33,939 nt of DNA, taken from positions 1 to 33,939 of the forward strand of contig NZ_RQVT01000004.1 of assembly GCF_004010055.1 (NCBI RefSeq), in the 5' to 3' direction. The translations under genes and the position numbers were made by a program. Shown piece by piece: positions 1,079 through 28,716 of this stretch. Every line of letters begins with the position of its first letter. The first letter of the stretch is position 1. The notes under the pieces are model-generated. The model made no database searches, was not told the origin of the DNA, and saw only the letters and a list, made by a program, of their open reading frames with translations. Source of the DNA: Psychroflexus aestuariivivens. Lineage in GTDB: Bacteria > Bacteroidota > Bacteroidia > Flavobacteriales > Flavobacteriaceae.

Positions 1079-2065
1079 TTAATCATCTAGTAAATCAACG
1101 TAATTTTTAATAGCATTTTTAATTTGATTGGCTAGAGCATTATTGCCATCTTCGTCCTCTGGACTAATTTCAATTGTTCCATTACCATTACCATCCGTTG
1201 CACTACTCAAGTCTACCTCACTAATAACTGCATTCAAATCGAAGTTGAAAGTTACCGTGTTGTTATTAGACTCGTCAATGATAAGATTTTGTCCAGCATC
1301 TTCATAGTCAACTTCAAATTCTTCGTCGAAAGTATGGTAAAACTCTAAAGGCGTTCCGTTTATCGTACCAGAAATCAACATTGATTTTTGAAATAAAGGA
1401 CTGTTTGGGTTTGTACTTCTATCCATTTCAAACTCAACTTCTTCGTATTCACCTACTGGAATTTCAACTTCTGTAACAGTGACAGGACCGCCAGCTAAAT
1501 CTAATTCAAAAGGGCCGTTTAAGTCAAATTCATCATCACTTCCATAACTATTATCGTCATCAGAATCATCATCGTCACTGTCATCACAATTGCTATCGTC
1601 CTGTTCCGTAGCATAAACAGTGAAATCTTCACGGAAATAAATCTCTAGTCCACTTTGCAACTCGACTTCATAACGATATGGATCATCTAAATCATCTTCC
1701 AATTCTGCTTTACAAAATGGATCATCTGGATAGTTTTCTTCCAAATAGTCCTGAATTTGAACTGGCAATTCTTCAAAACTTAAATGATCACTATCTTCTG
1801 AATCTGAAGAAGAACTAACCGATCTTCCTGAAGTTTCTGGATATTCAAATTCAATTTTTTTGATATTAATCATAAAGCTTTCAACTTCCAAACTATTTGC
1901 CGATTGTGCTAATCTGCCAGCAGTTTGTGCGTTGGTAGTGGCTAATATTTGCAAATTAGCTTTTGGTTCCAGGTTTTGCCCATTATTATTCACATCGTCA
2001 TCAGAAGAACAAGCAATAAATGCTGTTGTTGCTGTGAGTAAACTTAATGTCTTTAAAATTTTCAT
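1079..2065 (-). CDS. acidic lipoprotein: PepSY-like domain inserted in a DUF4382-like domain
   Basis: Predicted lipoprotein of 328 residues, with signal peptide MKILKTLSLLTATTAFIAC and lipidated Cys19 followed by SSDDD, a common surface-export context in Bacteroidetes lipoproteins. Residues 35-75 and about 180-325 read like the two parts of a DUF4382-type beta-sandwich. Between them, residues 95-152 look like a PepSY-like module (LPVQIQDYLEENYP, then YRYEVELQSGLEIYF). It is followed by an Asp/Ser-rich linker at 155-180, which contains Cys160; Cys118 lies in the PepSY-like part, so a disulfide is possible. I chose the ATG at 2065 because the upstream ATG at 2086 lies only 3 bases past the -10-like element at 2090-2097, giving no room for a leader. 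The shared promoter ties it to the sigma factor and receptor locus. The domain naming is by eye; the exact ligand is unknown. Confidence 0.75.
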   Translation of the reverse strand: MKILKTLSLLTATTAFIACSSDDDVNNNGQNLEPKANLQILATTNAQTAGRLAQSANSLEVESFMINIKKIEFEYPETSGRSVSSSSDSEDSDHLSFEELPVQIQDYLEENYPDDPFCKAELEDDLDDPYRYEVELQSGLEIYFREDFTVYATEQDDSNCDDSDDDDSDDDNSYGSDDEFDLNGPFELDLAGGPVTVTEVEIPVGEYEEVEFEMDRSTNPNSPLFQKSMLISGTINGTPLEFYHTFDEEFEVDYEDAGQNLIIDESNNNTVTFNFDLNAVISEVDLSSATDGNGNGTIEISPEDEDGNNALANQIKNAIKNYVDLLDD

Positions 2066-2089: not shown

Positions 2090-2118
2090 TAAAACAACTT
2101 AAAATTAACTTACCCTAA
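2090..2118 (-). promoter_or_regulatory. ECF-type promoter, copy 1 (PepSY/DUF4382-like lipoprotein)
   Basis: On the minus strand, TTAGGG (2118-2113), 15 bases, then TTGTTTTA (2097-2090). This is the same sequence and spacing as three other copies at this locus. It starts 24 bases upstream of the chosen ATG. It is probably read by the sigma factor encoded at 3295-3822 (inference from position and repetition). Confidence 0.75.
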
Positions 2119-2161
2119 CTCAAAGGAATTATTTTTTAAAAATTATTTTTATTTTTCTAGG

Positions 2162-3187
2162 TTAAAGCTTTTCAAAAACCAAGTCACTATTTGGTTCATC
2201 AAATAATACTAATTGATCAGAATTTCCAAAGTCTGAAATATCCCAGTCCTCATCGAGATCATCCAGCTCGTCATCGTTAAAAACCAAATCTAGTTTTTGA
2301 ATGCCATCATCAAATTCTACTTCCCAATTTCCTATAAATTCAGCTTGCGTTGCAGTATTTACAACTGAAATACTGTTATCTGAATTGAAAGTAAAAATGA
2401 AATCATCAAACTCTTCAGTATCAATTTCACCTTCATCAACAAAATTGACTATCACAAATTCTCCTTCAGTCAAAAAAGTAATTAAATCAGGTTGTTCCGG
2501 TTCAAATTCGTATAACAAAGGTTCATAGCAGGCGAAATCTAAATTTGTAAAAGCAGACTCTAATTCAGCAAAAGAATTTATACTAAGGTTTAGAGATTCG
2601 AATTCCATTTCCAAAGGAAAATCGAATTCATAAAAAGCGTTGTCAGCTTTTAAATTTTCAATAAAATTAAAGAACTGTGCTTTATTTTGAAGTACGACAC
2701 TTTCGTTAATTTCGTTTGTAGAATTAAAGAAATTTAAGCGTAACGGAAAACTAAAATCTATACAATTGATTTCTGAACTTTCTTTAGCTTCAGCAATTAA
2801 CGCCCCAAATTCTGCTTCATTTTGAATACTAAGTGTTTCATAATTTACCAATGAAACTTCTACTGGAAACTGTAATTCTAAATCTGGTTCAGTTGCATAA
2901 CTATTCAATTCATCAATAAGATTTTGATAATCGGTTTCTGTGGACAATTCAACTATATTTTGATTGTTAATTTCAACCGTAAAAGGAAAAACAATACTCA
3001 TGGCACTGCTACCGTCGATAAAATTGTCGAAAGCTGTAGGATTTTGAGCGGCACGACTCAGCAAATTTGTAATTTCATCGCTGCTAGCCCTGGTTTGCTC
3101 ATCGTCTAATTCTATTTCAAAATCATCGCTTTGACAAGCAACTAAAGTGAAAAATCCTATTAAAAATAAGCAATAAATAGACTTCAT
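2162..3187 (-). CDS. acidic lipoprotein with four internal FP-repeats and a lipocalin-like C-terminus
   Basis: Predicted lipoprotein of 341 residues; the signal peptide ends at LVAC with lipidated Cys18. Four related repeats begin at residues 67, 107, 147 and 190. Each starts F-P-x-x-(V/L/M) on a beta hairpin and ends in a short helix of the type (F/Y)xxLIxxL; examples are FPVEVSLVNYETLSIQ and FPLEMEFESLNLSI. Residues 235-341 form a separate part with alternating strands (FIFTFNSDNSISVV, GNWEVEFDDGIQKLDLVF, then a DLVFEKL ending) that resembles lipocalin-like domains of flavobacterial lipoproteins. The protein is strongly acidic. It is transcribed away from the sigma factor gene from a back-to-back promoter, so it is very probably a member of the same signalling regulon, either as receptor partner or as surface ligand-binding protein. 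I do not know its ligand. Confidence 0.78.
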   Translation of the reverse strand: MKSIYCLFLIGFFTLVACQSDDFEIELDDEQTRASSDEITNLLSRAAQNPTAFDNFIDGSSAMSIVFPFTVEINNQNIVELSTETDYQNLIDELNSYATEPDLELQFPVEVSLVNYETLSIQNEAEFGALIAEAKESSEINCIDFSFPLRLNFFNSTNEINESVVLQNKAQFFNFIENLKADNAFYEFDFPLEMEFESLNLSINSFAELESAFTNLDFACYEPLLYEFEPEQPDLITFLTEGEFVIVNFVDEGEIDTEEFDDFIFTFNSDNSISVVNTATQAEFIGNWEVEFDDGIQKLDLVFNDDELDDLDEDWDISDFGNSDQLVLFDEPNSDLVFEKL

Positions 3188-3217
3188 TTGGTAAAATTAG
3201 TACATTCGTTTCAATAG

Positions 3218-3246
3218 TAAAACAAGTTTGAATAATTTTACCCTAA
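3218..3246 (-). promoter_or_regulatory. ECF-type promoter, copy 2 (FP-repeat lipoprotein)
   Basis: On the minus strand, TTAGGG (3246-3241), 15 bases, TTGTTTTA (3225-3218). It lies 30 bases upstream of the lipoprotein ATG at 3187 and is arranged head to head with copy 3. Only three bases separate the two TTAGGG boxes, which together form the palindrome CCCTAAGTCTTAGGG. Confidence 0.8.
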
Positions 3247-3249
3247 GTC

Positions 3250-3278
3250 TTAGGGCAAACTTTAGTTAAATTGTTTTA
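3250..3278 (+). promoter_or_regulatory. ECF-type promoter, copy 3 (sigma factor gene, autoregulation)
   Basis: TTAGGG (3250-3255), 15 bases, TTGTTTTA (3271-3278). This is the same element and spacing as the other three copies, directly in front of the sigma factor gene, which suggests positive autoregulation. The first in-frame TTG of the open frame is the first three bases of the -10-like box. Confidence 0.8.
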
Positions 3279-3294
3279 CTTAAAACCAAAACTT

Positions 3295-3822
3295 TTGCAA
3301 AAGGACAAAAATTTAATCGATAAGGTCTGCCTAAAGTCAATTTTTGAGCGGATTTATCAGCAGCAATCGACAGAACTTTACCGCCATTTTTATTATAAAT
3401 TTGGACATTCAGTCTGGGCGGAAGAAGTTGTACAGGAAGCATTTATCAAGCTTTGGGAAAAATGCAAGGACGTGCCATTTCTTAAAGCGCGTTCATTTTT
3501 GTTCACCGTTGCCAATAATTTATCCTTAAATAGATATAAGCACCAAAAAGTAGTGCTCAACTATCAAAAAAGTCACACACAAAGCAAAGAGGATCATCAA
3601 ACACCAGAATTTGTTTTGGAAGAAGAAGAATTTAAAGTGAAGTTGCAAAATGCCATTCAGCAACTCACGCCAAAACAACGAAGCGTATTTTTGTTGCATC
3701 GCGTCGAAGGCAAATCTTACAAAGAGATTGCTGAAATGGAACAAATCAGCGTTAAAGCAGTTGAAAAACGAATGCAAAACGCACTGATTTTACTCCGAAA
3801 AGAAATTGAACAATTGAATTAG
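3295..3822 (+). CDS. ECF RNA polymerase sigma factor, FecI-like
   Basis: Sigma-70 family, group IV (ECF), about 175 residues. Region 2 is seen in WAEEVVQEAFIKLWEKC and the following FLFTVANNLSLNRYKHQ stretch. Region 4 is seen in LTPKQRSVFLLHRVEGKSY, then the helix-turn-helix EIAEMEQISVKAVEKRMQNA. It should recruit RNA polymerase to promoters controlled by the FecR protein encoded next. No ATG precedes region 2. The open frame begins at a TTG at 3271, but that codon lies inside the promoter element. I therefore place the start at the TTG at 3295, which leaves a 16-base leader, close to the 18 bases seen in front of fecR. A non-ATG start could keep the level of the factor low. The stop codon TAG overlaps the TTAGGG box of the next promoter. 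Confidence 0.88.
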   Translation: MQKDKNLIDKVCLKSIFERIYQQQSTELYRHFYYKFGHSVWAEEVVQEAFIKLWEKCKDVPFLKARSFLFTVANNLSLNRYKHQKVVLNYQKSHTQSKEDHQTPEFVLEEEEFKVKLQNAIQQLTPKQRSVFLLHRVEGKSYKEIAEMEQISVKAVEKRMQNALILLRKEIEQLN

Positions 3823-3847
3823 GGTAAAACCAATTTGAATTGTTTTA
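3819..3847 (+). promoter_or_regulatory. ECF-type promoter, copy 4 (fecR-receptor operon)
   Basis: TTAGGG (3819-3824), 15 bases, TTGTTTTA (3840-3847), identical in both boxes and in spacing to the other three copies. It begins within the sigma factor stop codon and ends 18 bases before the fecR ATG, so fecR and the receptor can be transcribed separately from the sigma gene. Confidence 0.8.
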
Positions 3848-3865: not shown

Positions 3866-4762
3866 ATGGAAGATAACAATCGATGGGCAAAATGGTTTAA
3901 TAACGAAATTCCAGACGATGCTGTAAAAGGTGAAGCTGATTTTGAAACTTTTGCCAAAATAAAAAAATATTCGTCTCAACTTCAATCCCCTGAATTTGAT
4001 GAGAGAGCTTTATTTCAAAAAATTGAAAATCAAACCTTTTCTAAAACTGAAAAATCTAAATTTTGGGGTCTCAAAATTGCTGCCGTTTTTATAGTACTTA
4101 TCGGAATTGGTGCTTTGGTGATTTTCGCTAATTCTACGACAATTGCCAGCGGAACAGAAGCGATGGTTTTTCAGTTGCCAGACAATTCCGAAGTTCAACT
4201 TTCACCCAATTCTAAAGTTGAATACAATACTTTATTATGGAAATACAATCGTGATATAAAATTGGAAGGCAAAGCTTATTTCGATGTCGCCCACGGAAGA
4301 AATTTCAGTGTTGAAACAAATACAGCTAAGGTTGAAGTTTTGGGAACTCGGTTTGAAGTCGATGCAAGTTCAGAAAAATTTCAAGTCACTTGTTTTGAAG
4401 GTAAAATCCGAGTTACTTCTACTGAAAACAAACAAATTTTGCAAGCAAATCAAAGTCTTTTGCTTAAAAACAGCAAACTGATTTCTAGAGAAAATCTAAA
4501 CCTCTACCCTACTTGGATTTTAAAAAATAAAGCGTTTGAAAAAGCTGATTTTTCTGATATTTTAAAAGAGTTAGAGAAAGTTTATAATGTAAGTTTGTCT
4601 ACCGAAAACCTCAACATCCAAAAGCGCTTTACCGGAGAGTTACCGCTCAATCGACTAGAAGTAGCTTTAAAAATCCTGAGTGAAACTTATGGTTTGAAAA
4701 TTGAAAAACGCAGCGAAAATAGTTTTATTTTTGTTGAATATGCAAAAGCAAATCAATCATAA
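3866..4762 (+). CDS. FecR-type anti-sigma factor
   Basis: Inner-membrane regulator of 298 residues with three parts. A cytoplasmic N-terminal segment (1-67), containing RWAKWFNNEIPDD, should bind the sigma factor. A single transmembrane helix lies at about 68-88 (FWGLKIAAVFIVLIGIGALV). The periplasmic FecR domain spans about 95-190, with the family motifs LPDNSEVQLSPNSKVEYN, LEGKAYFDVAHG and VEVLGTRFEVDA, and is followed at 215-290 by a C-terminal DUF4974/STN-like domain. In this family the periplasmic part receives the signal from the N-terminal domain of the outer-membrane receptor and releases the sigma factor. The receptor gene overlaps the end of this gene by 23 bases, so the two are translated from one message. 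No unusual features are seen. Confidence 0.9.
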   Translation: MEDNNRWAKWFNNEIPDDAVKGEADFETFAKIKKYSSQLQSPEFDERALFQKIENQTFSKTEKSKFWGLKIAAVFIVLIGIGALVIFANSTTIASGTEAMVFQLPDNSEVQLSPNSKVEYNTLLWKYNRDIKLEGKAYFDVAHGRNFSVETNTAKVEVLGTRFEVDASSEKFQVTCFEGKIRVTSTENKQILQANQSLLLKNSKLISRENLNLYPTWILKNKAFEKADFSDILKELEKVYNVSLSTENLNIQKRFTGELPLNRLEVALKILSETYGLKIEKRSENSFIFVEYAKANQS

Positions 4763-7265
4763 AATTCTTTTACTGCTATTTTTTTTGAGCGTGTTTTTTT
4801 CAAGCACAGCTCAAAATCAACAAACATTTGCATTGCTAAATTTACTGGATGAGTTGGAACAAAGACACGATATTCGTTTCAATTATGTCGTTGAAGATTT
4901 ATCGCCTTTGGAATTACCGAAACCTAATCAAATCAATAATCTTGATGCCGTTTTTGACTTCATTTTTAAACACACTCAAGTTGAAATTTCTAAGGTAAAT
5001 GATAATAATTATACGGCGGTTTGGCAGGAATATTCTGCTTGCTTTCAGTTGAAAAACAGTTTGAATTTAGCGGATTTAGCAGCAGTTGCAATTTACAATC
5101 AACAACAATTAATCGGTAAGACGAATTCCGTTGGGAAATTTTTTCTTCGAGATTCTTCAGTTAAAGAATTGACCTTCAAATCCACTGACTTTTTTTCTGA
5201 AAATATTTCAGTTGAAACTGCTTCAACTAGCAATTGTTCGACAATATATTTGTATCCAGAACAAGAGTTGGATGAAGTCATAGTTCAAACTTATTTGACA
5301 CAGGGTATTGACTTGAAAAATGATTTCAGTATTGAATTCACGCCATCAGAATTTGGAGTTTTACCTGGTTTGATTAATGCAGATGTTTTGCACAGTTTAC
5401 AATATGTGCCAGGGATTGTCAACACCGACGAAAGCGTTGCTGAAATCAATGTGCGCGGCGGTACAAATGATCAAAATTTATTGCTTTGGAATGGTGCAAG
5501 ATTGTATCAAGGCAGCCATTTTTTCGGTATGATTTCATCCTTAAATCCTTTTGCGGCTAATCACATTCAGATAAGTAAAAATGGGAGTTCTGCTTTTCAT
5601 AGTGAAGGCGTTTCTTCAGTGATTTCTATTGAGACAAAAGCTGAAGATATTACTAAAAATTCGAATGTCATTCATTCTAACTTTTTAGGAACGGGCGTTG
5701 TGACTTCACAAAAATTGAGCAAGGATAGCAAACTTCAAGTATCTGCCAGAAGATCTTTTACCGATGTTTGGGAGTCTCCAACTTATAAACGCATGCGTAA
5801 CAAAGTTTTTCAAAATACCGAAATTCAGAGTTTGCAAGATCAAAATAGCCAAGCGGTTCGGGTGAATGAAAACTTTTATTTTGCGGATGCATCAGCAAGT
5901 TTTCATCATCAAATCAATGACAAAAATGAAATGAATGTAAATATTTTAGGCATTCAAAATGAATTAGAATTCAATGAAATTTTAGTCAGTTCTGGCGAAG
6001 AAGAACGCAATAATTTGGGGCAAAATAATTTTCTAGGCAGTTTCAATTTTAATAGAAAATGGAATAGCAAACACCAAACCCAAGCTGAAATAAATGCTTC
6101 ATTTTACGAATTAAATGCAGAAAATAAATCTGTTTTTACAGCACAAAATTTACTCCAGAACAATCAGATAATGGATTTGGGTTTTCAATTGAAACATCAA
6201 ATGGAATGGCAAACCCAAAAGGTTTTGACTTTTGGGTATCAATTTCATGAATTAAGTGTTTCCAACGAAAATTTGGTAACTTCTCCAAATGTGCGTGTTT
6301 TTGAAAGAAATGTAATTGGAATTCATGCTTTAATTGTTGAAAATAATTATCAATCTGTGAATCAAAATTTTGATTTTAGGCTGGGTTTGCGTGCGAATTA
6401 TTACTCTGGTTTAGATGAGTTTCAGTTTTCACCGAGATTTAATTTAAGTTGGCGATTATTACCAAAACTTAGGTTTCATATTTTAGCTGAACAAAAATTT
6501 CAAAGTTTAACTCAGGTGATTGATCAGCAACAAGATTTTTTTGGACTTGAAAAAAGACGTTGGAAACTTGCAAACGGAGAAGATTTCCCTTTGCTAAAAA
6601 GTCAGCAGGCTGAAATAGGTTTGCAGTGGAAATATTTGGGTTGGCGATTGCAATCGAGTCTCTTTCATAAATCAGTAAATGGCATCACGTCACAGAGTCA
6701 AGGATTTCAAAATCAGTTGGAATTTTTGCGTCTACAGGGAGATTACAAGATCTCTGGAATCGAATTTTTAATTCAAAAACGCATTCAGGATTTTAGATTT
6801 TGGTTGAATTATGCATTCAGTGAAAATGATTACGAGTTTACAGGTTTCAAACCGTCTGTTTTTCCAAATAATTTTGAAGTAATTCATAGCAGTGCATTCG
6901 GTTTGTCTTATGAAAATAAGGCTCTGAAAGTGGCGCTTGGAGGACGATATATTGCCGGACATCCAACGACATCCATCAATTCGGACAATCCTATTTTGAA
7001 TCCAGAAACCAACCCTAGCATCAATTATAAAGCTCCAAATTTTGCTAATTTACAAGATTATTATCAAGCGAATGCCAGTGTTTCTTATACTTTCAAATGG
7101 CAAAAATTTCAACTGGAAATTGGTATGAGTTTTTTAAATTTATTTGATACAGCCATCGAAACGGATAGATTTTACCGTTTAAGTGAATCGCAAACTGAAG
7201 TAGAACGTATCGAAACTCAAAATTTAGGCTTAACCACCAATGCTTTTTTGACTGTGTTTTTCTAG
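4740..7265 (+). CDS. TonB-dependent outer-membrane receptor/transducer with STN domain
   Basis: Protein of 841 residues. The ATG at 4740 lies inside the end of fecR and gives a clean signal peptide (1-25, ending FFSSTAQ); the frame continues upstream, but that would bury it. Residues 30-95 look like the STN signalling domain (LLDELEQRHDIRFNYV), the part that contacts FecR in transducing receptors. Residues 100-175 form a carboxypeptidase-regulatory-like beta domain. The plug follows at about 178-310 (INADVLHSLQYVPGIV, EINVRGGTNDQNLLLWNGAR), then a beta barrel ending in FLTVFF. It probably imports, or only senses, an unknown ligand and reports it to FecR. No SusD partner is present, which argues against a standard polysaccharide utilisation locus; the two acidic lipoproteins of the regulon may serve as surface partners instead. 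Confidence 0.88.
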   Translation: MQKQINHKILLLLFFLSVFFSSTAQNQQTFALLNLLDELEQRHDIRFNYVVEDLSPLELPKPNQINNLDAVFDFIFKHTQVEISKVNDNNYTAVWQEYSACFQLKNSLNLADLAAVAIYNQQQLIGKTNSVGKFFLRDSSVKELTFKSTDFFSENISVETASTSNCSTIYLYPEQELDEVIVQTYLTQGIDLKNDFSIEFTPSEFGVLPGLINADVLHSLQYVPGIVNTDESVAEINVRGGTNDQNLLLWNGARLYQGSHFFGMISSLNPFAANHIQISKNGSSAFHSEGVSSVISIETKAEDITKNSNVIHSNFLGTGVVTSQKLSKDSKLQVSARRSFTDVWESPTYKRMRNKVFQNTEIQSLQDQNSQAVRVNENFYFADASASFHHQINDKNEMNVNILGIQNELEFNEILVSSGEEERNNLGQNNFLGSFNFNRKWNSKHQTQAEINASFYELNAENKSVFTAQNLLQNNQIMDLGFQLKHQMEWQTQKVLTFGYQFHELSVSNENLVTSPNVRVFERNVIGIHALIVENNYQSVNQNFDFRLGLRANYYSGLDEFQFSPRFNLSWRLLPKLRFHILAEQKFQSLTQVIDQQQDFFGLEKRRWKLANGEDFPLLKSQQAEIGLQWKYLGWRLQSSLFHKSVNGITSQSQGFQNQLEFLRLQGDYKISGIEFLIQKRIQDFRFWLNYAFSENDYEFTGFKPSVFPNNFEVIHSSAFGLSYENKALKVALGGRYIAGHPTTSINSDNPILNPETNPSINYKAPNFANLQDYYQANASVSYTFKWQKFQLEIGMSFLNLFDTAIETDRFYRLSESQTEVERIETQNLGLTTNAFLTVFF

Positions 7266-15169: not shown

Positions 15170-17377
15170 TCATTCCAACAATGAGGTCAGAAATATTCTT
15201 ACGGCATCGGTTTTATTCAAGTAATATTTGGCTTTGGTTTTCTTTAAACCGACTTTTATCGTGTGTGACTTTTTAGGCAATTCTTCAAACATAAATTCAT
15301 CCGTCCAATCGTCGCCTAAGGCAAAAATATGATCGTATTCTTTTTGATTCAAAACATGAGAACAAGCGCGTCCTTTATTGACTTTGCTGCTTTTTATTTC
15401 GATTACTTTATTGCCTTTCAACAGCGTTAAATCTGTGTTTGAAATAAAACTCGTCAGTACTGTATTGATTTCAACCACACGTTTTTGCGCCAGTTCAATA
15501 TCAGCATTTCGGTAATGCCAAGCCAAAGAATATTTTTTCTTTTCAACCAAAGTTCCAGGTGTTCGGTCTACAAAAGTTTCTAAAACGGGCAACACATTTT
15601 CCATCCAATCGGTGTTTAAACGTTCTAAAATTTGCCATTCTTTATTTTCGTTTCGGATGGCGACACCGTGATCGGAAATCAGCGTGTAGTTTTTATCGGC
15701 AAACCATGTTCCCAAAGTTTCATTGTCACGACCGCTGATAATTACAATATCAAGATTTGGCTGGGCATCCAAACGGTCTAAAAGTTCAAACAAAGCAGCG
15801 TCTGGCTTGGCGTCTTCTGGCTTCTTTGTGAAATTTACTAAAGTGCCATCATAATCCAAAAACATCAATTTTGAATCTTGACTTTGAATGATTTTTTGAA
15901 AATCTTGAATATGATTGTCGCTAATTTTTTCAGCTTCAATGAAATTAGAAATATTATGAACTTGCTTCAAAGAATTCATAAACTCGCTAGCCCACTTTTC
16001 TACACTATAGCGCGACACACGTTTTTGCAAAGTTTGCATTCGGCTTTTTTGTTCAGCTTTTGGCATTTCCAAAGCTTGTTTGATGGTGTCGGCAATTTCT
16101 TCAAAATTGAAAGGATTGATGAGCAAGGCTTCATTCATTTCTTTGGAAGCGCCCGCCATTTCACTTAGAACTAAGACGCCATCTTCGTTGGTTCTGGTCG
16201 CTACATATTCTTTTGCGACAAGATTCATGCCATCACGCACTGGCGTAATCAAAGCCACATCGCTGGAAGTGTACAAATCGATAAGATTTTCAAATGGCAT
16301 GGTTCGGAAAAAATACCAAATTGGCGTCCAGCTTACGGTTGAAAATTCACCGTTTATTCTTCCAACCAATTCATCGGTTTCACGCTTCAATTTTTGGTAT
16401 TGTGGCACTTGCGAACGCGATGGCACGGCAAGCATAATCAGTCTTATCTTTTCTTGAAATTCTGGATATTTTTTCAGAAAATATTCAAAAGCGCGGATAC
16501 GGTTTGGAATACCTTTGGTATAATCCAATCGATCTATGGACAAAATCATTTTTACATCGCTACTGTATTCTAAATGTTGATCCAATCGCTTTTGAATTTC
16601 AGTTTTTTCGTCTGGCTTTTGTGTATTGTGTTTTAATGCTGCCGACTTAAACTTTTCATAATCAATTCCCATTGGAAATGAATCAACTTTTATAATTCTG
16701 TGATCGTGGGTGATTTTATTGAAACTGACATCCAAGTTCAAAATTCGCTTCACGGAACTTAAAAAATGGCGCTCATAGTCATAAGTATGAAAACCAATTA
16801 AATCTGCGCCTAAGATGCCTTCCAGAATTTCTTTTCGTTTCGGAAACGTTCTAAAAATTTCATATGAAGGAAATGGAATATGGTTGAAAAAACCGATGGA
16901 CAAATTGGGTTTTTCTGCTTTTACCAAAGCTGGCAATAGTAAAAGTTGGTAATCATGGATCCAAATTTTATCACCGTCTTTTGCTTGCTCTAAAACGACT
17001 TTAGCGAATTTTTGATTTACGCGTTCGTAAGATTCCCAGGATTTTTGGTCGAATTCTGTGTATTCTATAAAATAGTGAAATAAAGGCCAAAGGGTTCGAT
17101 TGCTAAACCCGTAATAATACAAATCAACATCTTCTTGAGTTAAACCAACTGCAACACATTGTTCTTCGGAAATGGCAGAATTTACTTTTTTTTCAATTTC
17201 AGGATTCAACTCTTCATCGGTCAAACCTGACCAGCCAATCCAGATTCCATTACTATCTTTGTGAACAGATTTCATTCCGGTGGCAAGTCCACCGACACTG
17301 GGTTTAACTTTGATTTCATTATCATTGCGTTCAATCTGAAGTGGCAATCTGTTGGAGACGATTATTGTTTTATTCAT
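15170..17377 (-). CDS. bifunctional trehalose-6-phosphate synthase/phosphatase (OtsA-OtsB fusion)
   Basis: Cytoplasmic enzyme of 735 residues that should make trehalose from UDP-glucose and glucose-6-phosphate in two steps. Residues 1-480 form the GT20 synthase, with the GGLATGM loop (29-35), WIHDYQLLLLPALV, GFFNHIPFPSYEIFR, SIDRLDYTKGIPNR and PVRDGMNLVAKEYVA. Residues about 500-735 form the HAD-type phosphatase: FLDYDGTLVNF with Asp508 and Asp510, IISGRD, and LGDDWTDEFMF. The fusion order, synthase then phosphatase, is as in plant and yeast enzymes and is common in Bacteroidetes. It is transcribed divergently from the GH15 gene with 82 bases between the start codons, so the two probably share control. 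Trehalose points to a role in osmotic, cold or drying stress. Confidence 0.93.
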   Translation of the reverse strand: MNKTIIVSNRLPLQIERNDNEIKVKPSVGGLATGMKSVHKDSNGIWIGWSGLTDEELNPEIEKKVNSAISEEQCVAVGLTQEDVDLYYYGFSNRTLWPLFHYFIEYTEFDQKSWESYERVNQKFAKVVLEQAKDGDKIWIHDYQLLLLPALVKAEKPNLSIGFFNHIPFPSYEIFRTFPKRKEILEGILGADLIGFHTYDYERHFLSSVKRILNLDVSFNKITHDHRIIKVDSFPMGIDYEKFKSAALKHNTQKPDEKTEIQKRLDQHLEYSSDVKMILSIDRLDYTKGIPNRIRAFEYFLKKYPEFQEKIRLIMLAVPSRSQVPQYQKLKRETDELVGRINGEFSTVSWTPIWYFFRTMPFENLIDLYTSSDVALITPVRDGMNLVAKEYVATRTNEDGVLVLSEMAGASKEMNEALLINPFNFEEIADTIKQALEMPKAEQKSRMQTLQKRVSRYSVEKWASEFMNSLKQVHNISNFIEAEKISDNHIQDFQKIIQSQDSKLMFLDYDGTLVNFTKKPEDAKPDAALFELLDRLDAQPNLDIVIISGRDNETLGTWFADKNYTLISDHGVAIRNENKEWQILERLNTDWMENVLPVLETFVDRTPGTLVEKKKYSLAWHYRNADIELAQKRVVEINTVLTSFISNTDLTLLKGNKVIEIKSSKVNKGRACSHVLNQKEYDHIFALGDDWTDEFMFEELPKKSHTIKVGLKKTKAKYYLNKTDAVRIFLTSLLE

Positions 17378-17459
17378 AAGAAAATTTTGTAGTGTCCAAT
17401 AATTTTGCGTTAATTTAATAAAAAATATAATTTTTAACTTACAAAACGTATTAAATCCT

Positions 17460-19226
17460 ATGAATAATTTGAATTATGGAATTATTGGAAACTGCCGAAC
17501 TGCAGCCTTAGTCTCCGATAAAGGTTCACTAGACTGGTGTTGCTTGCCAGAATTTGACTCAGCCTCTGTTTTTGCTAAACTACTTGATGAAGAAAAGGGT
17601 GGTCATTTTTCTTTTACAGTCGATGATTCTTATCAGATTTCTCAAATTTATATAGAAAACACTTGCGTCTTGAAAACGAGATTTGAAAATCCTGAACATT
17701 GTTTTGAAGTTTTCGATTTTCTGCCACGCTATCAAAAAGAAAATTCTAAATATCACGCACCTCCAGAAATAATTCGGTACATCAAAGTGATTTACGGCAA
17801 ACCCAGCCTAAAAATAGATTATCAACCCAAATTAGAATACGCCATAGGTCATACCGTAAAATATGTGAAAGACAATTTTATAGTGAGTCTAACTGAGGCT
17901 GATAAATTTGACACGCTCTTTTTATACACCAATTTAGACAAAACAAAAGTCGTTGATGCTGAACCTATTCAACTTGAAGATGATGCCTTTTTCCTTTTGA
18001 CTTATAATGAAAAAATAGATTTACCAAACATTTCATCAATCAAGTTAGAGTTTGAACGCACCAAAGTCTATTGGCTGAATTGGACTTTCAAAACGCCTGT
18101 TTTTCAAAAATATAATGACATGATCCTGCGAAGTGCCATGACTTTGAAACTGTTGAGTTACGAAAAAACAGGGGCAATATTGGCGGCTGCAACCACTTCT
18201 CTACCAGAAACCATTGGCGAAGTAAGAAATTGGGATTATCGCTTCTGTTGGATTAGAGATGCGTCTATGGTTGTAAAAGTGGTTTCACAACTTGGTCACG
18301 ACCGCATGGCTAAACGCTATTTGCAGTTCATTATAGATCTAATTCCTGATAAGAATGAAAAACTGCAAATTATGTACGGCATCAATAAAGAGAAAGATTT
18401 GACGGAGAAAACACTATCGCATCTTAGCGGTTATCATAACTCTAAACCTGTGCGTGTTGGCAATGCAGCTTATGAGCAAAAGCAAAACGATATTTATGGC
18501 ATTTTAATGGATGTTATTCATCAAGAATTAGTCAAATATAAATCCGACACAGAAAACAAAGAAGAACTTTGGACAATTACAAAAGGTATTGCTTGGGTGG
18601 TAAGTCGACATTGGGAAGAACCAGACAAAGGCATCTGGGAATTTCGAAACGAAAATCGACATTTCACCTTTTCAAAAGTGCTGTGTTGGGTTGCTATAGA
18701 CCGCGCTATAAAGGTTTCTAAGTTATTTGGAAAAACGTCTAAATTGAAACGTTGGGAAGCTTTGGAAGAAGACATCAGAACAGATATTATGACTAATGCA
18801 TGGAACGAATCGGTCGGTGCTTTCACCCAATCTTATGGTTCCACAGATTTAGATGCTTCTGTGTTGCTCATGGAAACTTATGGGTTTATTGAAGCCAAAA
18901 ATCCAAAATACGTTTCGACTGTCAAAGCAATTGGCAAGCATTTGACCAATGATGGTCTGCTTTATCGTTACAAAAACAAAGATGATTTTGGATTACCGAG
19001 TTCTTCATTCACTATTTGTACGTTTTGGTATATCAACAGTTTGCATAAAATTGGCGAAGAACAATTGGCTGAAGAAAGTTTCGAACAACTTATGAAATAT
19101 AGCAATCATTTGAATTTATTCAGCGAAGATATCGATTTCAAGAGCAAACGTCTTTTAGGGAATTTCCCTCAAGCCTATTCACATTTAGCATTGATTGAAA
19201 CTGCCATCAATCTTTCAAAATCATAA
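17460..19226 (+). CDS. GH15-family glycoside hydrolase (glucoamylase/trehalase-like)
   Basis: 588 residues without a signal peptide, so cytoplasmic. The N-terminal beta-sandwich opens with YGIIGNCRTAALVSDKGSLD, and the (alpha/alpha)6 barrel begins near 215. Family motifs are RNWDYRFCWIRDAS (256-269) and KGIWEFRNENRHFTFSKVLC (390-409), where Glu394 is the probable catalytic acid. In many relatives the catalytic base lies just before the late FxxCxFW motif; here that stretch reads GLPSSSFTICTFWYINSL, with Ser where Glu is often found. GH15 contains glucoamylases and also trehalases. The divergent otsAB gene makes trehalose, or an oligosaccharide linked to it, the most likely substrate. The pirin gene follows after 12 bases, indicating an operon. 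Confidence 0.87.
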   Translation: MNNLNYGIIGNCRTAALVSDKGSLDWCCLPEFDSASVFAKLLDEEKGGHFSFTVDDSYQISQIYIENTCVLKTRFENPEHCFEVFDFLPRYQKENSKYHAPPEIIRYIKVIYGKPSLKIDYQPKLEYAIGHTVKYVKDNFIVSLTEADKFDTLFLYTNLDKTKVVDAEPIQLEDDAFFLLTYNEKIDLPNISSIKLEFERTKVYWLNWTFKTPVFQKYNDMILRSAMTLKLLSYEKTGAILAAATTSLPETIGEVRNWDYRFCWIRDASMVVKVVSQLGHDRMAKRYLQFIIDLIPDKNEKLQIMYGINKEKDLTEKTLSHLSGYHNSKPVRVGNAAYEQKQNDIYGILMDVIHQELVKYKSDTENKEELWTITKGIAWVVSRHWEEPDKGIWEFRNENRHFTFSKVLCWVAIDRAIKVSKLFGKTSKLKRWEALEEDIRTDIMTNAWNESVGAFTQSYGSTDLDASVLLMETYGFIEAKNPKYVSTVKAIGKHLTNDGLLYRYKNKDDFGLPSSSFTICTFWYINSLHKIGEEQLAEESFEQLMKYSNHLNLFSEDIDFKSKRLLGNFPQAYSHLALIETAINLSKS

Positions 19227-23926: not shown

Positions 23927-26134
23927 TTAATTGATTTGTCTGATTAGCATCCCAGATGCATACTTATTACTATTGCCTTTGAAAAGTGTAAAATCCTCGG
24001 TTTTTTCAGCGTTTTCAGCTTCTTCAGCCATAAAAGTATTGTCCCAAATTTGTTTTTTGTCAACCTTAATTGTACCAATACGCTTGTAAGAAGTTCTGCC
24101 GTCTTCATCTAAAACTTGTTCTAAAACTTCAAATTTGTCACCTTTCTCCAGACCTTCTTTGAGTCCAATTTTAGCTTTAATAGGATCACCGCTTAGTAAT
24201 GGTGTTTTCACTCTAAAATCTTCAAAAGTGCGTTGTAATTTGCTAATGTTTTTGTCAACAGCTCGAATCGTGGCTATTTCTATAAGTTCTTCATTTGTTT
24301 TTGAAGTGAAAATTGTGGATTGCAAGTTGTTTCTAGACACTTCACTACCAACATATTTGAGCTTGAAAAAGTCTGTGGACTCAAATTTTGCTTTTTTGTT
24401 TTCATCAAAATTTGATTCATCAATCCAGAAATCTGAATAAAACTTATTAGCTGTTTCTTCATCCCAAACAAGTTGATACAAGTAAGTTGTTGTTCTTACG
24501 AAATATCCTTTACCTACAACATCTGATGCTGCTTTCCCTAAAGTTGCTACCGTCGCAACTTCCTCACCTCCAGGAACAAAAGAAGCTACAGTTGACACAG
24601 CATTTAAGAAACCACCTCTTTTTTCTGCCTGCTCCTCTTTATTGGTGTATTTGTAATCGTATACTATTACAAAGGTATTTCCTATCAATTCTTCACCAGC
24701 ATCTTGAAGCAAAGCACGACCTCTTTTGCTTTCCATAGCTACTTTCACATTTAAATCTGAAGCATCGTATTGACCACGCTCTGCTACAAGATCCATATTA
24801 AAGTTGCCATTTTCATCTCTATTGAACCATTTAGAAATCAATGATTTTGCTGCATTGTTTGCATTCAAATAATCTTCTATGTGTTGTGTTTGGTCATTTT
24901 CGCCTCCAACACCTGGAATAAGATAAGGTCCAATATTGTGGTTATTAAATTTTTCAGATAATTCAGTATTACCAAAGGCATCCTTTATAGTATTGTAATG
25001 TTCTCGTGATTGGTCATCGACCATAAGTGTATAAAGTGAACTTCGTCTGTATTTCATTCCTGACAATTCATCACGATCTAGTTTTTCAATGTCCGATCGT
25101 TCTCCAGAAGATTCAACTGTTGCGCTAACAAAATTACTTTTAGCTAAATTTTCATCACCTTCTTGTTTTTTTTGTTCTTCAAGAATCAATAGATATTCCT
25201 GCTCTCTCTTATTAAAGTTTGCAAAACTTTCTTCGTCTATTTCAGATAAATCTACATTTTCAAAATCTATAGCGTCTTCGGAAACTGGTGTTGCTGTTGA
25301 TAACATACCAGAAGATGGAATAGAATTTCCTGCTGGAATAGCCGACATATTTCTTGCTATATCATTCATAGAACTAGACATATAAGAATCAATCGGCGCA
25401 TTAAATTCAATTTTAGTCCGCATTTCTGTCATCATTTTGCCAGTTTCTACATTAGTAACCATCATTGTTTTAATCGGAACTTTAATACCATCATATTCGC
25501 CCCAATCTTGGTATTCGATTATGCTTTCACTATTATTATTGATTATGATTTCAGAAATTTTGATCCAGGAATTTTTGTCGAAATGAGAAGTTACCTGTGT
25601 AGCATCATCAACTCTGTAGCTCACTGCAAAAACCTCCATTCCGTTAAGTTTTTTCACACTTACTTCAGCGCTTTCAGGAGGATTCAATTCAGGAAAAAAA
25701 ACAACCGGCTTATCATACAAAGCAAGCATGTTTTCATCGAAATCCATCTTAAAACCAGTGGACAATTCGGTATAGCCAGAGTTCCCTGTGTAGACAGTTT
25801 TAGTTACAGAACCAGCTGACTTTGTCACAGAAGCTAGCTTTCCAGACTTGTCTCTTGCCATAAGCATCACACTATTCATCGTAGTTTCTGTTCCGGAAAA
25901 ATTTGTAGTTGTACTCATGGATTCTTCCTTTACCATTGACTGAATTTGTTTTAATTTCTCTCGACCACCAATAGCTTTAATGTAATTCTCAAATATTTTT
26001 TCTACACTGATCTCAGAACTGTCAATTTCAATTTCAAACACTTCTGAGTTTAATTTAGAAGAATACCGAATATTTTCAGCAAAAGTTGAACTGGCTAGAG
26101 AAATGAACATTAAAAAAGTTACAATTGTTTTCAT
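23927..26134 (-). CDS. large exported protein, LolA-like N-terminal part and unknown C-terminal part
   Basis: 735 residues, first gene of the five-gene operon. Signal peptide 1-19 (ending LASSTFA). Residues 45-250 resemble outer-membrane lipoprotein-sorting (LolA-like) beta domains of Bacteroidetes: the helix NYIKAIGGREKLKQIQSM is followed by many strands (YTGNSGYTELSTGFKMDF, EVFAVSYRVDDATQVTSHF). Residues 290-345 are acidic low-complexity linker. Residues 360-650 form a unique part with a glycine-rich AVSTVASFVPGGEEVATVA segment. Residues 660-730 look like a small barrel (KIGLKEGLEKGDKFEVLEQV, YKRIGTIKVDKKQ). No enzyme motif is visible. It probably binds a hydrophobic molecule in the periplasm and works with the downstream proteins. 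Confidence 0.65.
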   Translation of the reverse strand: MKTIVTFLMFISLASSTFAENIRYSSKLNSEVFEIEIDSSEISVEKIFENYIKAIGGREKLKQIQSMVKEESMSTTTNFSGTETTMNSVMLMARDKSGKLASVTKSAGSVTKTVYTGNSGYTELSTGFKMDFDENMLALYDKPVVFFPELNPPESAEVSVKKLNGMEVFAVSYRVDDATQVTSHFDKNSWIKISEIIINNNSESIIEYQDWGEYDGIKVPIKTMMVTNVETGKMMTEMRTKIEFNAPIDSYMSSSMNDIARNMSAIPAGNSIPSSGMLSTATPVSEDAIDFENVDLSEIDEESFANFNKREQEYLLILEEQKKQEGDENLAKSNFVSATVESSGERSDIEKLDRDELSGMKYRRSSLYTLMVDDQSREHYNTIKDAFGNTELSEKFNNHNIGPYLIPGVGGENDQTQHIEDYLNANNAAKSLISKWFNRDENGNFNMDLVAERGQYDASDLNVKVAMESKRGRALLQDAGEELIGNTFVIVYDYKYTNKEEQAEKRGGFLNAVSTVASFVPGGEEVATVATLGKAASDVVGKGYFVRTTTYLYQLVWDEETANKFYSDFWIDESNFDENKKAKFESTDFFKLKYVGSEVSRNNLQSTIFTSKTNEELIEIATIRAVDKNISKLQRTFEDFRVKTPLLSGDPIKAKIGLKEGLEKGDKFEVLEQVLDEDGRTSYKRIGTIKVDKKQIWDNTFMAEEAENAEKTEDFTLFKGNSNKYASGMLIRQIN

Positions 26135-26943: not shown

Positions 26944-28716
26944 ATGTCACAAACCAAAACTATATATCAAACCAAAATTCAGGAATTCAAATCTGAGCTG
27001 AAACAAGTCAAGCAACAACTTTTTCTCTCCAGCATGTTGCGTTTATTAGTATTTCTACTTGTTGCTTTTTCGGTGTATCAGTTTTGGTCTTCTACCAGAA
27101 TTGTCATCGGTGCCGTTTTAGCTGGCATCGTTTTATTTATCATTTTGGTCACCAGACACAGCAATATTCAATATAAAAAAGCCAAGCTAAAAGCCCTAAT
27201 TGACCTCAACCAGACGGAGCTCAAAATTCTTGACAGAGAATTTGCCGACCGTCCTACAGGCGAAGTTTACAAAGATTCACTGCATGAATTCAGCCAAGAT
27301 ATCGATATTTTTGGAAAGCATTCTTTTTTCCAATATTTGAATCGGACGTCGCTTCAGGAAGGCGAAACGAATTTAGCAAAAATGTTGACTGCCAACGACA
27401 TCAAACATATTGAAATCAAGCAAAAAGCGATTCAGGATTTGGCAGAACTTGTTGATTTTAGACAGCAATTTTCTGCCGATGCCAAATTGGTGGACACAGA
27501 CACCAAAGCCTCGAGCATTATAGATTGGATTACCAATTACAATTCTTTTGTGCCTAAAATGATGGCTTGGTTTCCAATTGTATTTTCGTTGCTTTCTGTG
27601 TCTGTCATTAGCATTTATTTCTTGAATTATATTTCTGGCGCGCAACTTTTACTTTGGTTTGTTATTGGATTGGTCATCAGTGGTATTTATTTGAAAAAAG
27701 TGAATGTTTTGTCGGGTTATGTGAGCAAAGCCCAAAGTACATTTCAGCAATATTTCAAACTGCTGAATGCCATTGAAAATGCTAATTTTTCATCGGACTT
27801 ATTAAAAACTTATCAAGAGAAAATCAAAACCGAAAATGCAACAGCTAGTCAAACTTTAAAGCAGTTTTCAAAACATATTGACGCTTTGGATCAACGTAAT
27901 AATTTTCTGGTAGGTGTATTTTTGAATGGTTTTATGCTTCGTGATTTGACGCAATCTTTAAAGATTGAAAAATGGATTGCACTTCATGCCGACCAAGTAA
28001 AAAACTGGTTTGAAGTTATCGCCCAAATCGATGCGCTGAATAGTTTAGGGAATTTTGCATTCAATCATAAAAACTACGTGTTTCCTGAAATTCAAGACGG
28101 TAATTTTCTAACCAAAACGCGCGGCGCTGTGCATCCACTCATTGATCCAAAAGATGCAGTCACCAATGATTTCGACATCAAAAATGATGAATTTTTCATC
28201 ATAACTGGCGCCAATATGGCGGGAAAAAGTACATTTCTTAGAACAGTTTCCATACAAATTGTGATGGCGAATGTTGGTCTGCCAGTTTGTGCAAAATCTT
28301 GCGAATACAACCCTATAAAACTAATTACCAGTATGCGAACGGTTGATTCGCTGGCAGATGAAGCCTCATATTTTTTTGCTGAATTGACCAGATTGAAATA
28401 TATCGTGGACAAAATCCAAGATGAGCGTTATTTTATTGTTTTGGATGAAATTTTGAAAGGCACCAATTCTACAGACAAAGCCATTGGTTCACAAAAATTC
28501 GTGGAGCGATTGGTAAAATCTAAATCCGTTGGAATCATCGCCACCCACGATTTGAGTTTGTGCGAGGTTGCTGAATCGATGCCACAAGTGAAAAATTATT
28601 ATTTCGATGCGGAAATTTTGAATGATGAATTGCATTTCGATTATGCTTTAAAACATGGCATTTGTCAAAATATGAACGCTTCTTTCTTATTGAAAAAAAT
28701 GGATATTGTGGAATAG
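26944..28716 (+). CDS. membrane-anchored MutS-like ATPase
   Basis: 590 residues. It has the MutS core and ATPase but not the mismatch-recognition domain. Two transmembrane helices lie near the N-terminus (about 31-47 and 52-70) and two more at about 207-225 and 232-250, so it is held in the inner membrane. The helical lever/core region covers about 260-390. The ATPase has Walker A TGANMAGKSTFLR (421-433), Walker B FIVLDEILKGTNS, and the His-containing IIATHDLSLCE switch. MutS proteins of this kind are widespread in Bacteroidetes and their function is not established; classic post-replication repair is unlikely without the N-terminal clamp domains. The gene ends at a shared convergent terminator. 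Confidence 0.87.
   Translation: MSQTKTIYQTKIQEFKSELKQVKQQLFLSSMLRLLVFLLVAFSVYQFWSSTRIVIGAVLAGIVLFIILVTRHSNIQYKKAKLKALIDLNQTELKILDREFADRPTGEVYKDSLHEFSQDIDIFGKHSFFQYLNRTSLQEGETNLAKMLTANDIKHIEIKQKAIQDLAELVDFRQQFSADAKLVDTDTKASSIIDWITNYNSFVPKMMAWFPIVFSLLSVSVISIYFLNYISGAQLLLWFVIGLVISGIYLKKVNVLSGYVSKAQSTFQQYFKLLNAIENANFSSDLLKTYQEKIKTENATASQTLKQFSKHIDALDQRNNFLVGVFLNGFMLRDLTQSLKIEKWIALHADQVKNWFEVIAQIDALNSLGNFAFNHKNYVFPEIQDGNFLTKTRGAVHPLIDPKDAVTNDFDIKNDEFFIITGANMAGKSTFLRTVSIQIVMANVGLPVCAKSCEYNPIKLITSMRTVDSLADEASYFFAELTRLKYIVDKIQDERYFIVLDEILKGTNSTDKAIGSQKFVERLVKSKSVGIIATHDLSLCEVAESMPQVKNYYFDAEILNDELHFDYALKHGICQNMNASFLLKKMDIVE

Follow-up and report, generated by a model that had tools for sequence, protein, structure and literature searches.

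A recurrent promoter-like element at a FecI-FecR-receptor-type locus of Psychroflexus aestuariivivens and at related sigma factor loci

In the ferric citrate signalling system of Escherichia coli (FecI-FecR-FecA), an ECF sigma factor is combined with a FecR protein and a TonB receptor, and a sigma-directed promoter precedes the receptor unit (PMC9249621). The E. coli fecIR genes are described as Fur-regulated and not autoregulated (PMC9249621). The same three-part logic is found within the phylum considered here, in the ECF sigma, anti-sigma and SusC systems of Bacteroides (PMC3878776). Genomes of Bacteroidota may encode many ECF sigma factors, with 50 in Bacteroides thetaiotaomicron (PMC12596196), and the prediction of their promoters was termed challenging in a comparative study (PMC3878776). 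A non-canonical -30/-10 promoter of B. thetaiotaomicron, PM2, has been attributed to the ECF sigma factors SigW-1 and SigH-1 (PMC12596196, PMC7366714); the motif search for SigW-1 reported in one of these studies was not significant (PMC12596196).

We analysed a 33,939-nucleotide stretch of P. aestuariivivens DNA (the window, always meant at its full length), in which a locus resembles both systems in its parts. A lipoprotein gene (LP2) on the minus strand is followed on the plus strand by genes for an ECF sigma factor, a FecR protein and a TonB receptor, and a further lipoprotein gene (LP1) completes the locus (Table 1). Four copies of one bipartite element accompany these genes and are very probably the target promoters of the encoded sigma factor in a cell-surface signalling system of the FecI-FecR-FecA kind.

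Table 1. Genes and predicted promoter copies of the locus (positions in the window)
Feature	Position	Strand	Remarks
LP1 lipoprotein	1079..2065	-	PepSY-like and DUF4382-like stretches, Asp-rich segment
Predicted promoter copy 1, upstream of LP1	2090..2118	-	ATG 2065 lies 24 bases downstream
LP2 lipoprotein	2162..3187	-	repeated stretches, by eye
Predicted promoter copy 2, upstream of LP2	3218..3246	-	LP2 ATG 3187; back to back with copy 3
Predicted promoter copy 3, upstream of sigma gene	3250..3278	+	may serve positive autoregulation, found chiefly in this clade
ECF sigma factor, TIGR02985-like	3295..3822	+	predicted start TTG 3295
Predicted promoter copy 4, upstream of fecR-receptor	3819..3847	+	FecR ATG 3866
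FecR-type anti-sigma regulator (FecR and FecR_C)	3866..4762	+	PF04773 and PF16344 over cut-off
TonB-dependent receptor with plug	4740..7265	+	PF07715 29.5 bits, cut-off 23.9

The sigma factor matched PF04542 and PF08281 (regions 2 and 4) over cut-off. Its best model was TIGR02985 (Bacteroidetes sigma-70 family 1) with 122.7 bits, just below the NCBIfam cut-off of 126.4, and the protein is therefore termed TIGR02985-like only. The longest sigma reading frame opens at TTG 3271, inside promoter copy 3; alignment with orthologs points to the start near the later TTG that is given in Table 1. The FecR protein matched PDB entry 4m0n, a putative anti-sigma factor (E 2.6e-14). The receptor barrel had no Pfam match, and the receptor had no PDB sequence match at E 0.01. 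In a scan of receptor N-terminal domains, that of the window was without a match, and among nine members five matched FecR_C and one STN. We take the FecR_C fold to be STN-like. Judging from its relatives, the window receptor may carry a signalling-like N-terminal domain.

The two lipoproteins were harder to place. LP1 gave sub-threshold Pfam matches to PF11396 (E 5e-5) and PF14321 (E 4.5e-4). Among PDB sequences it had a weak match to 3due, a periplasmic protein (E 9e-5), and a weaker one to 3db7 (E 0.015), whose name, putative calcium-regulated, is only a hint of a calcium role. ATG 2065 is the more likely start of LP1, as the upstream ATG 2086 is too near the -10 box. For LP2, neither Pfam at E 0.1 nor the PDB sequences at E 1 gave a match. 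Single-sequence structure models of LP2 and LP1 were unusable (mean pLDDT 40.8 and 36.6, respectively). Elsewhere in the window we noted a trehalose-6-phosphate synthase/phosphatase fusion gene and, in divergent orientation, a GH15 gene whose product has a trehalase-like N-terminus (15170-19226), a 735-residue protein that matched nothing in Pfam at E 0.001 (23927-26134) and a 590-residue MutS-like protein that matched MutS domain V only (26944-28716).

A sequence-only reading of this DNA had reported four copies of the element with identical boxes and equal spacing, and no others in the window. All four were recovered as exact matches to TTAGGG-N15-TTGTTTTA, compared with none in 100 dinucleotide shuffles of the window, and the total stayed at four when up to three mismatches were allowed. 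The mean of the shuffles at that tolerance was 8.8, an excess of chance over observed matches that may itself be due to chance. In the genome that holds the window (3,105,059 bases in 64 contigs), the four copies were the only exact ones, and two further sites were one mismatch away. With up to two mismatches, 74 sites were found versus 92 for the reversed pattern, so the looser matches are at chance level. A refined pattern, KTAGGGTA-N14-TGTTNTA, returned only the four copies of the window at up to one mismatch (reversed control, two).

The spacers had been described as unrelated. They do differ, but all four open with [TC]AA directly after TTAGGG, which makes the -35 element longer than six bases. 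In relatives, sites of the GGG type mostly have T at position 7, A at position 8 and A at position 20. As we write it, the element consists of a -35 box (T/G)TAGGGTA and a -10 box NTGTTNTA; the spacer that separates the six-base box from the eight-base box is fixed at 15 bases. Copies 2 and 3 point away from each other, their -35 ends 3 bp apart, and the sigma stop codon (TAG, 3820-3822) falls within copy 4.

Conservation was assessed over 124 sigma loci: the window, 35 loci of the same genus and 88 of other genera. The latter were drawn from the top of the relatives list, as a rule one per genome, and are no random sample. Sigma relatives were present in all 27 same-genus genomes. Seventeen loci form one clade with the window (55-64% identity) and 18 form a second, paralogous clade (42-50%). 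FecR and receptor genes lie downstream of sigma in 35/35 same-genus loci, LP2 is divergent from sigma in 17/17 loci of the first clade (window aside) and in 17/18 of the second, and LP1 was found, on either strand, in 13/17 window-clade loci.

In the window clade, the TAGGG element stands upstream of LP1 and LP2, as a rule also of sigma and in many loci of FecR; it points to the gene and lies 14-34 bases ahead of most start codons. Loci of the second clade mostly spell it GTAGGA and have it upstream of LP2 and FecR, but not of sigma. By the start-codon criterion, the counts for the first clade without the window were 13/13 for in-locus LP1, 16/17 for LP2, 14/17 for sigma, 10/17 for FecR and 0/17 for the receptor. 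The corresponding counts for the second clade were 15/17 (LP2), 0/18 (sigma), 16/18 (FecR) and 0/18 (receptor). FecR was without its own 15-spaced copy in seven of the 17 window-clade loci; sigma has one in six of these, and in the seventh (L048) a site is upstream of an inserted gene whose end lies immediately ahead of sigma.

Across the set, NTAGGN-N15-NTGTNNNA was found on the FecR side in 103 loci, on the LP2 side in 107 and on the sigma side in 13, these being the window and 12 loci of its clade. Sites of all three kinds were missing from three of the 124 loci (L048, L181, L192). The 88 other-genus loci held 162 template matches versus eight in reversed sequence. Another count, 176 versus 11, covers only the first 3.8 kb per stretch and mostly misses the sigma region in the 35 same-genus loci; for the 88, the figures of 162 and eight are the appropriate ones. 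When spacer lengths from 8 to 23 were scanned, 137 matches had 15 bases and at most four had any other length. At one flavobacterial locus whose sigma factor is 43% identical (L009, Flavobacteriales), CTAGGGTAAA lies ahead of FecR with no good -10 box at the standard spacing. Sigma relatives at E <= 1e-25 occurred in 208/299 genomes and 173/236 genera sampled.

The locus had also been seen as an autoregulated, closed switch. Autoregulation fits the window and its clade: with the last fixed A dropped, a sigma-side site within 230 bases was present in 16/18 window-clade loci, but in 0/18 loci of the second clade and 0/88 elsewhere, that is, in none of the remaining 106 loci. An exception lies outside the set, at a locus of another genus (L233, genome G193) with a site 63 bases ahead of the sigma match. 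At L228 and L234, the gene behind the site is DUF3575-like and lies upstream of sigma. The term closed suits this genome, but unlinked genes carry the element in relatives.

Back-to-back sites on the LP2 side and the plus strand, with 1-7 bp between the -35 ends, were found at 15/18 window-clade loci. At this distance two polymerases probably cannot bind at once, and polymerases may compete at the divergent pair. The plus-strand member at L048 and L051 precedes not sigma itself, but an inserted gene for a 519-residue protein. This secreted-looking protein is encoded between LP2 and sigma (L048:4532-6091 and L051:2823-4382, oriented coordinates).

We then compared same-genus genomes with and without this sigma factor. 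The strict pattern KTAGGGTA-N14-TGTTNTA gave 35 sites in 18/27 genomes versus four sites in the reversed control; a strict search for the GGA type was weaker (18 sites in 11/27 genomes versus six reversed). Strict sites of the GGG type occurred in 17/18 genomes with this sigma and in 1/9 without it (Fisher p 3.5e-5, uncorrected for relatedness); among the nine, G017, G021 and G023 are less than 90% complete, and G017 only 52%. The sole sigma-bearing genome without a strict site, G024, has LP1 elsewhere with a near-strict site. G005 and G016 each have a single strict site, placed upstream of an LP1 that lies outside the sigma locus analysed, and the single strict site of G009 is likewise away from its sigma locus. 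The motif lies 32-34 bases ahead of LP1 in G005, G016 and G024. Overall, it was present at LP1 in 17/17 same-genus genomes with both this sigma and LP1 and in 1/3 with LP1 alone (p 0.016).

Persistence of the element in relatives that lack the sigma factor would speak against the proposed link, and it was seen once. Strict sites were absent from eight of the nine genomes without this sigma. The ninth, G018, keeps the motif ahead of LP1. Between the stretches it shares with G011 it has only 73 bases, in place of some 6 kb that hold LP2, sigma, FecR and receptor in G011, which we read as a recent loss of the sigma block. G004 and G022 possess LP1 but lack this sigma gene, and the motif was not found at their LP1. 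Nine strict same-genus sites lie off sigma loci, three of them ahead of LP1; the other six are ahead of other genes or of none, and one is inside an ORF. At L082, L091 and L098 (G009, G026 and G013), related ORFs of 173 residues start 112-115 bases after a strict site, and an inverted repeat of the ACGGTTT type stands between site and ORF, perhaps a conserved leader; the L082 site is also inside an ORF.

In the wider family, GTAGGGTA-N14-TGTTNTA yielded 212 sites in 103 of the 299 genomes, versus 14 for the reversed pattern. Among 30 of the site loci, targets other than LP2 and FecR included a DUF4382 lipoprotein (L229), a pair of DGYYD-repeat lipoproteins (L224, L245), a CxxCH protein (L246) and, next to sigma, proteins of DUF3575-like type (L228, L234; Pfam applied to L228); several of the 30 loci had no downstream gene within the limits applied. 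L224 and L245 are away from any sigma match. Their products have, by eye, twin-arginine-like signal sequences, many DGYYDD repeats and, after the repeats, a domain resembling the LP2 C-terminus. LP1-like genes of other genera, whose similarity to LP1 is largely to its C-terminal half, carried the motif in 10/24 cases and lacked it in 14/24 (two of these without a readable start). Where such genes are unlinked, their spelling agreed with that of the sigma locus of their own genome in 5/5 genomes that could be compared.

The -35 box occurs in two spellings, GTAGGGTA and GTAGGA, and the split follows the sigma clade. Its sixth base was G in 129 sites, A in 96 and T in one. After one locus with a sigma reading of fewer than 110 residues was dropped, the 123 aligned loci comprised 68 with GGG only, 47 with GGA only, five mixed and three unlabelled, the last two groups (8/123) being left out of the helix counts. 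The paralogous clade contains two exceptions, L059 (GGG only) and L060 (mixed). The column of the whole sigma protein that best separated the spellings was residue 169 in the region 4.2 helix, which is Tyr in 47/47 GGA loci and in 4/68 GGG loci. Residue 161 ranked second and residue 150 third, and residues 49, 53 and 85, outside region 4, were close behind. Residues 161 and 169 presumably correspond to positions that contact the -35 element in E. coli sigma-E structures.

When region 4.2 was left out of tree building, a single change sufficed for Tyr169, compared with five for the spelling, only two of the five being forced by supported branches. An independent-pairs test of helix against box had too few independent switches to inform. 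The difference in spelling appears to be essentially one evolutionary split. The association of helix and box is consistent but unreplicated, and it may only reflect descent, as it comes near to a single clade split and residues 49, 53 and 85 separate the spellings nearly as well.

A bipartite conserved element close to start codons would also suit an operator through which a separate transcription factor co-regulates the locus, with no sigma promoter involved. We consider this improbable: the element is directional and non-palindromic with a fixed 15-base spacing, its -10-like TGTTNTA box sits at a promoter-like distance from starts, and its -35 spelling tracks the sigma clade. Slightly less credible still is that TTAGGG is an activator site and the -10-side box a variant of the housekeeping -7 box, of the TAnnTTGY kind in SM5 of Flavobacterium psychrophilum, a flavobacterium (PMC9723704). 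That consensus fits two of the four window copies and misfits the other two, the T and A of its TA occur across relatives at 0.62-0.71 and 0.36-0.45, and the linkage to an ECF sigma gene would be left unexplained. Recent functionless duplication, which the identity of both boxes in the window might suggest, can practically be dismissed, as the spacers differ and the element is kept at the same genes in other genera.

The remaining reading, a promoter read by the encoded sigma factor, was likewise put forward from the sequence of the window. It is supported by the recurrence of the element at orthologous and paralogous sigma loci, the exact 15-base spacing, the gene-directed placement, the presence at LP1 genes that lie elsewhere and the lack of a copy at LP1 in two of the three LP1-bearing genomes without this sigma. 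Conservation, spacing, direction and linkage to sigma were observed directly. We infer that the sigma factor reads the element, that FecR restrains sigma and that the receptor signals.

In such a system, the sigma factor would be held at the inner membrane by FecR until an outside ligand binds and the receptor N-terminal domain touches FecR. The freed sigma factor would then bring RNA polymerase to the four promoters and yield more sigma, FecR-receptor, LP1 and LP2. In the window clade, the sigma gene also has a copy to itself, in most loci back to back with the LP2 copy, and this would add positive feedback. At nearly all other loci examined, the element is confined to the FecR-receptor unit and the LP2 side.

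A wider proposal is offered tentatively and is less likely than not to hold. One promoter code, with GTAGGGTA or GTAGGA as its -35 spelling (then N15, NTGTTNTA) depending on the region 4.2 helix, might run through much of the family and mark FecI-FecR-receptor regulons that include unlinked acidic surface lipoproteins (DUF4382-like and DGYYD-repeat). The window-clade pair might then work as a switch, based on competition and perhaps bistable, that chooses between feedback and the output of lipoproteins.

If the promoter can be read in this way, regulons could be predicted across the family. Surface lipoproteins would be linked to a little-studied signalling system, and the two spellings would provide natural classes of specificity in which to test how the -35 box is recognised. 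The motif was not found in the portions of the literature covered by our search, and the published ECF classification may already list it. Among described promoters, PM2 may be of a similar type, the comparison covering its TGTT close to -10 and the distance of roughly 20 bases to its second, upstream box (PMC12596196, PMC7366714). SM6 of F. psychrophilum is likewise a flavobacterial promoter assigned to an ECF sigma factor (PMC9723704), but it differs in its CGT -10 box and in the presence of T9SS genes among its targets (PMC9723704). Unlike the Bacteroides SusC systems, the locus gave no SusD-like match in the seven proteins scanned around it. Unlike E. coli Fec, it has a promoter-like copy between sigma and fecR, a site of the sigma gene's own, and LP1 and LP2 as predicted additional targets.
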